Assembly (NCBI GenBank): GCA_007571315.1 | Contig: RKRP01000174.1 | Coordinates: 1 to 39,201, forward strand | Direction: 5' to 3' | Length of the DNA stretch: 39,201 bases | Source: Gammaproteobacteria bacterium | GTDB lineage: Bacteria > Pseudomonadota > Gammaproteobacteria > Steroidobacterales > Foliamicaceae | Shown here: positions 6,921-37,637 of the stretch, piece after piece | Numbering within the stretch: the first letter of the stretch is position 1 | Layout of the letters: each line of letters starts with the position of its first letter | Translations under genes and position numbers: made by a program | Notes under the pieces: generated by a model | Databases searched by the model: none | Seen by the model: only the letters and a program-made list of their open reading frames with translations | Told to the model about the DNA's origin: nothing

Positions 6921-7820
6921 ATGGCGGTTGAAGAAATGGAGGAGGTTATGCCGCCAGAAGGAGCGGGAGCCGTGATTGTCGCCGCCACTCCAATCGGCAA
7001 CCTCAGCGATGTTAGCACGCGGCTAAGGGACACCTTGCGCGAGGCCAGGAAGGTGGCGGCGGAAGATACCCGCCGCGCCGCCAGGCTGCTTGAAAGCGTG
7101 GGCGCCCGCGCCCGCATGGTGTCGCTGCACGCCCACAACGAGCGCTCGCGCATCGCGCAACTCCTCAACGGAGTGCTCGGCGGGGAGGACCTGGTGCTGC
7201 TTTGCGATGCCGGCACGCCGGGCATCAGCGATCCGGGAATGCGGCTGGTCAGCGAGGCCCGGCGCGCAGGCATCCGGGTTACGCCGCTGCCCGGCCCCTG
7301 CGCCGCTATTGCCGCCTTGTCCATTGCCGGCTTTTCGGCTGAGCGGTTCCGCTTCGAGGGATTTCTGCCAGCCCGGCAGGCGGCCCGGCGCGCGCGTCTT
7401 GAGCAACTGAAGCCGGTTGCCGAAACGCTGGTTTTCTACGAAGCCGTTCATCGGCTGAGCGCCACGCTGGAAGATATGCGCGAGGCATTCGGCGCCGGGC
7501 GCAACGCGGTCCTCGCGCGCGAAATGACCAAGCTGCACGAAAGCGCCTACGGCGAAACGCTGGACGGCTTGTGCCGAAAGGCGGCATCGGGAACGATTGT
7601 GCCCAGGGGCGAATTCACCCTGGTGGTGGCCGGCGCCTCCACGCCGAAGGAGAATGAAGGCGCCGCAGCCCTTGACGCAGTCCTCAACGTGCTGCTAAGC
7701 GAACTCTCCACACGCCAGGCGGCCCGCCTCGGCGCCCAACTCGCCGGAACCCCGCGCCGCGCCGCCTACCAGCGCGCCTTGGAACTCAATCGCCCGAAAC
7801 AGTCCGCCAAAGGAAAGTAG
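6921..7820 (+). CDS. rsmI: 16S rRNA (cytidine(1402)-2'-O)-methyltransferase RsmI
   Basis: Methylates the ribose of C1402 in the decoding centre of 16S rRNA, using SAM. 299 residues, tetrapyrrole-methylase fold: VAATPIGNLSD (20-30), AEDTRRAARLL, LLCDAGTPGISDPG for SAM binding, LPGPCAAIAALSIAG, and the C-terminal KLHESAYGETL and PRGEFTLVVAG. An excellent Shine-Dalgarno (GGAGGAGG) 6-7 nt upstream supports the ATG at 6921. The divergent lpoA/rsmI arrangement is conserved in gammaproteobacteria. There is no base between the two start codons, so each leader and promoter must lie inside the other gene's coding sequence. Confidence 0.95.
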   Translation: MAVEEMEEVMPPEGAGAVIVAATPIGNLSDVSTRLRDTLREARKVAAEDTRRAARLLESVGARARMVSLHAHNERSRIAQLLNGVLGGEDLVLLCDAGTPGISDPGMRLVSEARRAGIRVTPLPGPCAAIAALSIAGFSAERFRFEGFLPARQAARRARLEQLKPVAETLVFYEAVHRLSATLEDMREAFGAGRNAVLAREMTKLHESAYGETLDGLCRKAASGTIVPRGEFTLVVAGASTPKENEGAAALDAVLNVLLSELSTRQAARLGAQLAGTPRRAAYQRALELNRPKQSAKGK

Positions 7821-7989: not shown

Positions 7990-7995
7990 TAGAAT
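7990..7995 (+). promoter_or_regulatory. Candidate -10 box of the orphan ATPase gene
   Basis: TAGAAT within GCTAGAAT ends 9 nt before the ATG at 8005. The same GCTAGAAT octamer occurs near 339-346 and 37590-37597. Transcription from it would leave a leader of only a few nucleotides. Confidence 0.35.
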
Positions 7996-8004
7996 ACGGC
8001 GGGA

Positions 8005-9285
8005 ATGAATAGCGAACAACGCAAGAATCTGCGCAGCTACGCTGAGCGCGAGGACAGGGAGCCCGAACCGGTTTTCGTAGGCCGCGAGAACTTGTTCGAG
8101 ATCGTTGCGAAGAATGTTCGCGGGGCTGCGGAGCGAAAAATCAGCACCGGGAAAACCGTCTGCATTACCGGACCCCCCGGCGTTGGCAAGTCCGCCTTCG
8201 TCGACGCGCTGAAAAAGCGCAAGGACTTCGGCGGCATCACCGCGCATTGCGTTGAGGTTTCCCGCGCCGATCTTTATCATCCGGCGTGCGTGATGGCCGC
8301 GTTCGCAGATGCCGTACCCGGCTTCAAGACGGACTCCGCCCTGCGCAAGTGGCTGAAGAGTGGAGGGTTGAAGGCCGGCGTGACGGCCTCTGCCGGCACC
8401 GGCGTTTACGTTGCCGCCGACTGGCGGCATACCGCCCCGCCGCCGTTCACGACTTTCCCTGTCGGCAATTTCGCGCAAGGCGCGAAATTGCCGCTGGCCC
8501 GCGGCGATGCCTTTATCCTGGTCGTGGACGAGGCGCAGGGAATCAAGAATACGCCGGAAAGCAAGTCGAACAATCTGCTCGCCGACCTTCACCAGGGCGT
8601 GAAGCTCCCGATCGTGCCAGTGCTGGCGGGTTTGCCGAACACGCAGCAAAACTTGCGGGAAACCATATCGCGGTACTCCAGCGGTAACGAACCATTCATG
8701 GTGGGGCTGAGCGCCGGCGAGTCCCGGCAGTACGTTGAACAAATGTTTGCATGGCTTGAGGTCGAAGGTTCGCTGGCGCAGCACGAGGCGCTCGCCGACT
8801 GGATTGTCCAGGAATGCGGCGGCTGGCCGCATCATCTCTCGAATGCGATGAAAGCCGTGGCTGAGGGACTTGCGCAGGCGCGCTCGCTGCGCTTGCGCGA
8901 TTTGAATGGAGAAGAGGTGGCGGCATCGCTGAAAAGCAGAAGGGAAGAGTATTACAACGCCCGTTTTTCAAGCCAGAGGGCGCTGTCTTCCTGCCGGGAG
9001 GCTGTGATGTCCCTCGTGGAGAAAGATGGCGCGCTTCGCGTGATTCCGAACATTAAGCTGAGCGAAGAGGTTGCCGCGGCGCTGGCTGCGCACCCCTCGC
9101 CGCAGGGCGTGAGCGCGGCGGCTCTTGAGGATGCGCTGCGGGCGAGCGGAGTGTTGGCGCGGAGGAAGCACGAATGGATCTGCCCCATCCCCAGCATGGC
9201 GCGATTCATTGAGACCGGCGCGCCTGCCCTGACCGCCCCTTTCCCTGACTTGCGCGAAGGGGGCGGGCGTATAATGCGGGGTTGA
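8005..9285 (+). CDS. Orphan AAA+-type ATPase, function unknown
   Basis: 426 residues. A P-loop ATPase: FVGREN at 24-29, Walker A GPPGVGKS (56-63), Walker B ILVVDEAQ (171-178), a sensor-like VLAGLPNT (206-213), and a GGWPHHL motif like the 'GG.PH' helix of Orc1/Cdc6- and STAND-like ATPases. The C-terminal about 100 residues (REAVMSLV...ARRKHEWICPIPSM) look like a winged-helix domain. No transmembrane segment. It could be a DNA-binding or signalling ATPase; I cannot assign a reaction or partner. It stands alone between the housekeeping genes rsmI and metK, with no nuclease, transposase or integrase nearby. A perfect inverted repeat (8463-8493) encodes part of the loop between Walker A and B. 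Shine-Dalgarno weak. Confidence 0.75.
   Translation: MNSEQRKNLRSYAEREDREPEPVFVGRENLFEIVAKNVRGAAERKISTGKTVCITGPPGVGKSAFVDALKKRKDFGGITAHCVEVSRADLYHPACVMAAFADAVPGFKTDSALRKWLKSGGLKAGVTASAGTGVYVAADWRHTAPPPFTTFPVGNFAQGAKLPLARGDAFILVVDEAQGIKNTPESKSNNLLADLHQGVKLPIVPVLAGLPNTQQNLRETISRYSSGNEPFMVGLSAGESRQYVEQMFAWLEVEGSLAQHEALADWIVQECGGWPHHLSNAMKAVAEGLAQARSLRLRDLNGEEVAASLKSRREEYYNARFSSQRALSSCREAVMSLVEKDGALRVIPNIKLSEEVAAALAAHPSPQGVSAAALEDALRASGVLARRKHEWICPIPSMARFIETGAPALTAPFPDLREGGGRIMRG
8463..8493. repeat. Perfect 13-bp inverted repeat inside the ATPase gene
   Basis: Arms 8463-8475 and 8481-8493 (CGGCAATTTCGCG and its exact complement) flank a 5-nt loop CAAGG. It encodes VGNFAQGAKLP in the ATPase, between Walker A and B. 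It is strikingly stable for a coding region and more AT-rich in the middle than its surroundings. Confidence 0.85.
9270..9275 (+). promoter_or_regulatory. Candidate -10 box of metK
   Basis: A perfect TATAAT inside the last codons of the ATPase gene, 30 nt before the metK ATG. The -35 is unclear: TTGCGC at 9250 is only 14 nt away, and CTGACT at 9245 is 19 nt away. The predicted leader of about 24 nt is too short for a SAM or SAH riboswitch. Confidence 0.45.
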
Positions 9286-9305: not shown

Positions 9306-10508
9306 ATGCCAAAGACTTCGCTTTTTACTTCTGAATCGGTTTCCAACGGCCATCCTGACAAGATGGCGGACCAGATTGCGGACGCTGTTCTCGATTCCAT
9401 TCTGGGGGAGGATCAGGACGCGCGTGTGGCTGCTGAGGTGCTGGTTAAAACCGGGTTTGTTCTGGTGGCCGGGGAAATCACCACATCCACCTGGGTTGAT
9501 CTGGAAGCGCTGGTGCGGAAGTTGATAAAGGAGGACCTGGGCTACAACAGTTCGGAACTGGGCTTCGACGGCGACACTTGCGGGGTTCTCAACGCCATCG
9601 GCAAGCAATCGCCGGATATTCGAAGGGGTGTTAATGCTGGCGAGGGCAAGCCGCTGGGGGCAGGCGATCAAGGGATGATGTTTGGCTTCGCCTGCAAGGA
9701 CACGCCTTCGCTGATGCCGGCGCCCATTGATTTGGCTCACCGCCTGATGCGCCGCCACGCCGAGTTGCGCGATTCTGGCGAACTGCCCTGGCTGCGCCCG
9801 GATGGCAAGGCGCAGGTTACGGTGCGCTACGAGGACTATCGCCCGGCCGCGGTTCGCGACGTGGTGGTCTCCACCCAGCATAATCCGCAAGTCTGGCCCG
9901 AAGATTCTCCGCGAGGCGAGTGTCCGGAGGATTTCCGCGAGGCGATTATCGAACAGCTCATCAAGCCGGTTTTGGGCGCGGAATGGCTGCGCGGCCCGAT
10001 CAATTACCTGGTCAATCCGGCGGGCCGCTTTGTGGAAGGCGGGCCGCAGGCGGATTGCGGCCTCACGGGACGCAAGATCATCGTGGATACCTACGGCGGA
10101 ATGGCGCGCCACGGCGGCGGCGCCTTTTCCGGCAAGGACCCCTCCAAGGTGGATCGTTCCGCTGCCTACGCGGTGCGCCATGTGGCCAAGAATATTGTGG
10201 CGGCGGGCCTCGCCGAGCGTTGCGAGGTGCAGGTTTGCTACGCCATCGGCAGGCCGGAGCCGGTGGCCGTGGATGTGGAAACCTTCGGCACGGCAACGGT
10301 GAGCGACGAGCGTTTGCGGGCTCTGGTGCGCGCTCATTTCGATCTTTCGGTGGAGGGCATCATCCGGTCGCTGGATTTGCGCCGTCCCATATACCGTCCG
10401 GTGGCCGCGTTTGGTCATTTCGGCCGCGATGACCGCGGCTTGAGCTGGGAAGCGACGGACCGGGCGGCGGCGCTCGCCGATGATGCGCGCGGGGCGAAGG
10501 TGGCTTGA
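9306..10508 (+). CDS. metK: S-adenosylmethionine synthetase
   Basis: Makes SAM from methionine and ATP in the cytosol. 400 residues (E. coli 384). Signature residues: GHPDK (15-19, catalytic His16), [10 protein letters not shown] (118-127), [23 protein letters not shown] for metal, phosphate and substrate binding, and a C-terminal FGRDD. The first residues ([17 protein letters not shown]) match the family, fixing the start at 9306. Directly followed (15 nt) by ahcY, so SAM production and SAH removal are likely co-expressed. No riboswitch is visible upstream; a TATAAT box lies 30 nt before the ATG. Confidence 0.97.
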
Positions 10509-15902: not shown

Positions 15903-15984
15903 GCCGATGTGGTGGAAATGGTAGACACGCTGTCTTGAGGGGGCAGTGGCGCAAGCCGTGCCGGTTCGAGTCCGGCCATCGGCA
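15903..15984 (+). tRNA. leuU: tRNA-Leu (anticodon GAG)
   Basis: A full cloverleaf. The acceptor GCCGATG pairs perfectly with CATCGGC (7 bp), discriminator A at 15984. The anticodon stem CTGTC/GGCAG encloses loop TTGAGGG (anticodon GAG). The long variable arm GGC-GCAA-GCC is typical of class II tRNA-Leu. The T arm is GCCGG-TTCGAGT-CCGGC. The 3' CCA is not encoded (CAC follows), so CCA-adding enzyme is needed. Its position between secG and nuoA is conserved in gammaproteobacteria. Confidence 0.97.
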
Positions 15985-16031
15985 CACCCATGCCGGGTAG
16001 GCGATAAAAGGGCCTGATACTTCGATCGCAA

Positions 16032-37455: not shown

Positions 37456-37561
37456 GCCCTTTGCCTGCCCCCTCCTCATGGGAGCGTCTGGGACAGGATG
37501 CTCCAGCCGAGCGTCAGGATGACTTCATGCGTCTCCCACGAGGAGGGGGCAGGCAAAGGGC
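37456..37561. repeat. REP-like element: 29-nt inverted repeats
   Basis: Arms 37456-37484 and 37533-37561 are complementary over 29 nt with one mismatch (a possible G-U pair), with 48 nt between them. The right arm follows the 14-nt core TTCATGCGTCTCCC shared with the copy at 482. The loop holds a near direct repeat (GACAGGATG at 37492, GTCAGGATG at 37513). The element sits in the 37316-37637 gap between divergent genes, where I see no other feature except a TAGAAT near 37592 that could serve the hydroxylase gene. Confidence 0.75.
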
Positions 37562-37637
37562 GGGGACGCGCGGCCCCGTGAAATATGCGGCTAGAATCGC
37601 TGGCAGGATTTGATGCCGGCGGCAGAGTGTTTTTATC

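Follow-up and report, generated by a model that had tools for sequence, protein, structure and literature searches.

Between an rsmI-like and a metK-like gene, a gammaproteobacterium of the family Foliamicaceae carries a gene for a P-loop ATPase, and the locus raises the question of what such a gene is and what it may do among housekeeping genes. The original prediction, made from the letters of the DNA, had taken it for an orphan AAA+-type ATPase of Orc1/STAND-like kind, without partner genes, that possibly forms a single-gene system. We analysed the gene within a stretch of 39,201 nucleotides (the window; contig C169 of a draft genome of 2.21 Mb in 204 contigs, called G000 in the following, in which several copies of the gene lie at contig edges) and compared it with its relatives in the same genome, in sister species and in wider collections. 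Our best reading is that it represents an accessory one-gene unit in variable sites that are also used by restriction-modification (RM) and toxin-antitoxin (TA) genes.

The reading frame and its motifs

The predicted reading frame proved intact, with 426 codons between an ATG start and a TGA stop, and the Walker A, Walker B and GGWPHH motifs that had been read from it were all in place. The coordinates of these and of the other features discussed are collected in Table 1.

Table 1. Features of the ATPase gene and of its insertion site (positions in the window).
Feature	Position	Strand	Evidence
rsmI-like gene, flanking the site on the left	6921..7820	+	homology
TAGAATAC, -10-like box 15 nt ahead of the ATG	7990..7997	+	sole TAGAATRC match in the window
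P-loop ATPase ORF, 426 aa, member of a multi-copy family	8005..9285	+	translation, homology searches
FVGRE, residues 24-28, presumed N-terminal hhGRE-type motif	8074..8088	+	alignment
Walker A GPPGVGKS, residues 56-63	8170..8193	+	translation and alignment
Walker B ILVVDEAQ, residues 171-178	8515..8538	+	translation and alignment
GGWPHH, residues 272-277, GxP / sensor-2-like motif	8818..8835	+	W274, P275 and H277 unchanged across the 12 aligned rows
Residues 321-380, most variable internal part among the 8 copies	8965..9144	+	26-31% mean pairwise identity per 20-residue block
Residues 381-400 with CPIPSMAR, conserved C-terminal stretch and candidate winged-helix end	9145..9204	+	63% mean pairwise identity
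metK -10-like TATAAT within the final codons of the ATPase ORF	9270..9275	+	sequence; 4 sister species
metK-like gene, flanking the site on the right	9306..10508	+	homology

The Cdc6/Orc-STAND-like class of AAA ATPases is defined by an hhGRE-type motif before Walker A and a GxP motif after it. In the window protein Walker A is preceded by FVGRE at residues 24-28, which we take to be the hhGRE-type motif, and followed by the invariant W274-P275. The complete set (GR motif, Walker A, DE Walker B and GxP motif) is shared with AAA_16 (PF13191) and AAA_22 (PF13401) and fits the Cdc6/Orc-STAND-like ATPases of that kind, which supports the earlier Orc1/STAND-like assignment. A 12-row alignment of the family showed invariance of G56, G59, G61, K62, D175 and E176, of W274, P275 and H277, and of P394, I395 and S397 in the C-terminal block; conservation is high along the ATPase core, low over residues 321-380 and high again over residues 381-400.

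The Pfam AAA_16 model (cut-off 32.6) scored 31.9 for the window copy (2.2e-7), and exceeded the cut-off for the copy on contig C144 (37.5; 4.5e-9) and for a relative in genome G004 (50.7; 3.7e-13). Pfam recovered no further domain of note in the 426 residues of the window copy. Classic STAND proteins of the Avs/NACHT type carry sensor repeats and an effector domain, whereas the window ATPase has neither. The models in PADLOC, PHROGs and NCBIfam gave weak or P-loop-end matches to the window ATPase and none of them covers the family: PADLOC 2.0.0 matched it at the P-loop only (best E 0.012) and gave no match for the C6 copy, and the PHROGs model phrog_296 ('DNA transposition protein', 1.2e-5) had its best stretch at residues 4-69, the P-loop end. 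A protein search of the PDB gave nothing of note, and PDB profile matches (ClpB, RuvB-like, Cdc6, ORC4) were confined to the surroundings of the N-terminal P-loop half. The single-sequence AlphaFold2 model was poor (pLDDT 37, pTM 0.23), and within this low-confidence model residues ~371-392 fold as a helix and two short strands; a winged-helix end at the C-terminus is plausible on this model. According to PMC8195603, STAND NTPases are placed within the CDC6/Orc clade, antiviral defence is named among their bacterial roles, and an origin from the ATPases of transposases and Mu-like phages is cited.

A multi-copy family of solo genes

The designation as an orphan had to be abandoned: besides eight long copies of the family, the genome itself contains two pieces at contig edges and five that are decayed or truncated. 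A protein search found matches in 3 of 58 genomes (13 in G000 and weaker ones in two others), and a profile built from the eight copies (A1) listed 25 places in G000 at E-values up to 0.1, 15 of which were family pieces on reading and the other 10 P-loop-only matches or short stretches. The long copies lie on C169 (the window), C144, C45, C6, C101, C92 (right end), C109 and C150, the contig-edge pieces on C92 (left end) and C4, and the decayed ones on C114, C50, C67, C36 and, as a second piece, C150. Contig C4 breaks off within the first 22 codons of its family member, immediately downstream of uvrA (L130:3052-3118).

The window copy shares 43-58% identity with the other seven long ones. At synonymous sites the copies have diverged (pS 0.57-0.81) as much as, or more than, metK, rsmI and an EF-G-like gene have between G000 and its sister species (0.45-0.61), and the copies are therefore not the product of a recent burst. 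For 22 of the 28 pairs dS is finite, and dN/dS was 0.08-0.38 in these, rough values with dS high throughout and saturated in the other 6 pairs; the long copies are under purifying selection. Because 426 codons are open, seven homologous long reading frames exist in the genome and dN/dS is low, the reading frame exceeds what chance would leave.

Every copy is a solo gene whose neighbours differ from those of the other copies, and no constant partner recurs, which bears out the predicted one-gene arrangement and the lack of partner genes. A blastn comparison of the copies found no flanking DNA in common: apart from short matches elsewhere, the similarity comprises the genes and ~15 bp before the start. 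No transposase was seen in the neighbourhoods read, in which part of the neighbours were searched by profile. Some repeats were noted besides. C109 (L023:1313-1418) and C150 (L024:1-106) share 106 bp at 98% identity inside otherwise strongly diverged genes, which points to recombination or to a junction in the assembly, and a dispersed short, partly palindromic repeat occurs at 453-539 and 37456-37590 of the window, with further copies on C45, C109 and C36. The sole tRNA gene in the window is a tRNA-Leu (GAG) at 15903-15985.

The start of the gene is preceded by a -10-like box, the pattern of which (TAGAATRC) has one match in the window against a chance mean of 0.69. TAGAAT was present 14-16 nt ahead of the start in five of the six long copies with an intact start, and TATACT in the sixth, which suggests that each copy may carry its own promoter and give a near-leaderless transcript. 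Directly before a type ISP RM gene on C109 there is a palindromic, MITE-like element (L023:4909-5079), the ends of which match, and one of its ends lies upstream of a second type of ATPase gene on C144 (L017:11986-12048); at both places the element supplies the TAGAAT box. We considered this element as a mobility signal of the family and rejected it, as its end sequence is absent from the window and was found, among the stretches scanned in G000, only on C109 and, in part, on C144.

Outside G000, full-length relatives were found in 3 of the 396 genomes of the order: G004, of the same genus and with two copies, and G027 and G119, of another family; the remaining low-scoring rows of that search were partial. 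Searches of 274 genomes in the class and 398 in the phylum showed none besides G000. The tblastn searches of phages and plasmids with the window family were empty, as were those of plasmids with the G004 and G027 relatives, and scans of genome contigs with the window protein and with profile A1 gave no relative. The best reading of these distributions is that the family is lineage-restricted. A viral origin was rejected: scans of viral contigs gave nothing, or three loci from two contigs that on reading were unrelated (by eye, a MoxR-like and a DnaB-like protein). A literature search over titles and the starts of abstracts found no paper describing the family, which is not proof of absence. 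In G004 both copies stand among ordinary or housekeeping genes. In G027 (L031:9519-11789) and G119 (L120:7065-9338) the relative is fused, at the C-terminal side of a longer reading frame, to an N-terminal domain of ~350 aa; the domain in G027 matches part of NF011066 (PRK14495) at 7.1e-58, below the cut-off of the model, and possibly represents a natural fusion to an effector or a sensor, and that of G119 has no Pfam match.

Insertion sites and neighbourhoods

The flanking genes are rsmI-like and metK-like by homology, and the site between them was informative in all seven sister genomes compared (an eighth, G002, 66% complete and lacking a metK match, was dropped). It is empty in G003, G005, G007 and G008, where the two genes are adjacent across a short gap that holds the same TATAAT upstream of metK, and is filled otherwise in the remaining three. 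G004 contains an insert of ~10.5 kb with a type I RM system (HsdR, EcoEI_R_C 8e-40; HsdS; HsdM, N6_Mtase 2e-68) and AbiEii, PIN and SLFN_AlbA genes, G006 one of ~10 kb with N6_N4_Mtase, ResIII, DUF222-HNH and GNAT, and G001 one of ~6 kb that includes, by eye, a RelE-like gene next to a DUF222-HNH relative at 59% identity to its G006 counterpart. The seven genomes thus have, in the place of the window copy, either nothing or genes of RM/TA type.

Two further sites were compared. Contig C92 of G000 has a long copy beside ssb at its right end, and uvrA is on C4, the far end of which starts another copy; we infer from synteny that C92 and C4 adjoin. The ssb-uvrA interval was informative in four of the seven sister genomes (G004 and G008 being cut by contig ends and G007 having no query match): it is empty in G003 and G005 and contains, in G001 and G006, an MmeI-like reading frame that is 70-72% identical to an MmeI-type protein on C196 of G000. 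The site between an EF-G-like gene and DUF192, occupied by the C45 copy, was empty beside the EF-G-like gene in none of the seven genomes, and DUF192 lay within the fetched stretch in only three of them; its contents there, named by eye, were ABC-transporter, GntR-like and antitoxin/toxin-like genes and not RM. RM genes hence occurred at two of the three tested sites in sister species. Taken together, the family is multi-copy, with some copies decayed, consists of solo units with a -10-like box, and alternates at two sites between occupied, empty and RM-filled states.

The direct neighbours were surveyed for nine copies, namely the eight long ones and the contig-edge C-terminal piece on C92, leaving out the contig-edge C4 piece, the decayed pieces on C114, C36, C50 and C67 and the second piece on C150; neighbours without a Pfam call were named by eye. 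A defence-type gene directly adjoins four of the nine: on C144 a C5 methylase (Dcm, 5.7e-60) on one side, with an ATPase of a sister family on the other; on C6 a Cas9-like gene (HNH_4 5.3e-22, RuvC_III 1.9e-25) that is cut by the contig end; on C109 a type ISP RM gene (1.4e-40); and at the left end of C92 an AAA_11/AAA_12 helicase with an MTES_1575/DUF559 nuclease, which PADLOC matched as MkoC and more weakly as Hhe. The copies on C144 and C6 are transcribed divergently from their neighbour. The other five lack such a neighbour (the window copy, C45, C101, C92 right end and C150, the last three at contig edges), the C45 copy having an M.Eco57I-like methylase at ~5 kb. With respect to the 12 MTase genes of G000 in two Pfam families (8 PF00145 genes by our own count from 11 matches, and 4 PF02384 genes), one is found within 0.5 kb of 2/8 long copies (P 0.005) and within 5.5 kb of 3/8 (P 0.013), both from a rough binomial that was chosen after the neighbours had been seen and that treats the genome as one piece.

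The sister family, of bacterial 'ATP-binding protein' genes, is homologous to the window family over its full length (hhalign probability 99.6, E 1.5e-24, 352 columns, 18% identity). Like the window family it consists of single genes, is multi-copy in G000 and has, in its close group, an IPSLM-like C-terminal end; the window family differs in lacking the N-terminal NPFxPGxG (which in the sister family occurs together with LAGR) and in being far rarer. G000 has four long sister copies (C144, C132, C162, C204) and pieces on C145, C56, C196 and C45, with more distant members on C17 and in G004 and G006. Next to the C162 copy (L122:7760-11364) are genes for Vsr, a C5 methylase and an NgoMIV-type enzyme (3.4e-111), which together look like a complete RM cassette; the C196 piece stands beside an MmeI-type RM gene and the C204 copy beside a gene that is PIN-like by eye; the C144 copy shares the Dcm neighbourhood with the window-family copy. 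Plasmid relatives were found in 47 of 72,556 records, from diverse hosts. In the six records opened the gene, named 'ATP-binding protein' or 'ATPase', stood by itself; no partner recurred, and no RM gene lay within 7 kb. This argues in favour of a self-sufficient gene and against a compulsory link with defence.

Possible roles of the ATPase

The role that we tentatively put first is anti-phage defence, in which a single gene would supply an ATP-driven switch and its variable C-terminal stretch the recognition. The conserved N-terminal ATPase core would act as the ATP-dependent switch, steered by the variable residues 321-380; these probably belong to a winged-helix module, which would sense or bind nucleic acid or a component of the invader, and candidate outputs of the switch are a block on replication or transcription of the invading DNA or an arrest of the host cell. 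We infer the defence role from location, that is from the RM/TA genes at the same sites, the defence-type neighbours and the RM genes beside copies of the sister family. Against it count the absence of an adjoining defence gene at the window copy itself and at four other copies, the contents of the third site, the ordinary surroundings of the G004 copies, the plasmid contexts of the sister family, the confinement of PADLOC matches to the P-loop and the absence of an effector domain and of sensor repeats. As for the single-gene system proposed originally, the one-gene arrangement, the site with presence and absence and, in sister species and at other copies, the defence-rich surroundings were found. 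Variable accessory defence genes at fixed chromosomal sites are likewise described for the defence hotspots of E. coli in PMC10121019; those are mostly carried by identifiable mobile elements, whereas none was identified here.

The main rival, which we regard as somewhat unlikely, is that of a solitary regulatory or stress ATPase (a transcriptional or replication regulator, carried on plasmids in other taxa) without any part in defence, the plastic sites merely tolerating insertions. The plasmid contexts of the sister family, the contents of the EF-G-DUF192 site, which is not dominated by RM genes, and the housekeeping surroundings of the G004 copies are in agreement with such a regulator, whereas the RM genes at two of three sites and the defence-type genes adjoining four of nine copies argue against it, and a repertoire of eight copies with a variable C-terminal stretch would be unusual for a plain regulator.

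A helper of transposition or mobility (TniB/MuB/IstB-like), or a remnant of a mobile element that spread the copies, appears quite improbable. The TniB/MuB-type ATPases have the P-loop in common with the window ATPase, and the phrog_296 match, the copy number and the presence or absence at defined sites would suit such a helper, yet that match is confined to the P-loop end, the phage and plasmid searches were empty, and the family shows no transposase in the neighbourhoods read and no element ends, target duplications, recent duplicates or flanks shared beyond the start region; we therefore disfavour it. That the ATPase would serve the adjacent RM or CRISPR systems as a subunit or an accessory is very unlikely: copies do adjoin Dcm, type ISP RM and Cas9 genes, but each copy has different neighbours, no such gene stands beside the window copy, and two copies are transcribed divergently from their neighbour. 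A non-functional, decaying reading frame is hardly credible, since in spite of the five decayed pieces the eight long copies are open with their Walker motifs, dN/dS is below 0.4 in all 22 finite pairs and the start-proximal TAGAAT is kept.

Returning to the defence reading, an extension of it that we rate as clearly unlikely is that the genome possesses an innate-immunity repertoire of at least eight one-gene ATPase receptors, with a common core and each with its own C-terminal recognition stretch, which would evolve by birth and death as in NLR gene families and come and go at shared defence hotspots in the place of restriction systems. What the analysis brings forward is an unnamed, single-gene, multi-copy ATPase family that, together with its sister family, uses the same insertion sites as restriction systems. 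If defensive, it would represent a compact switch without a separate effector, and the eight natural variants and two hotspots make the question of defence directly testable.
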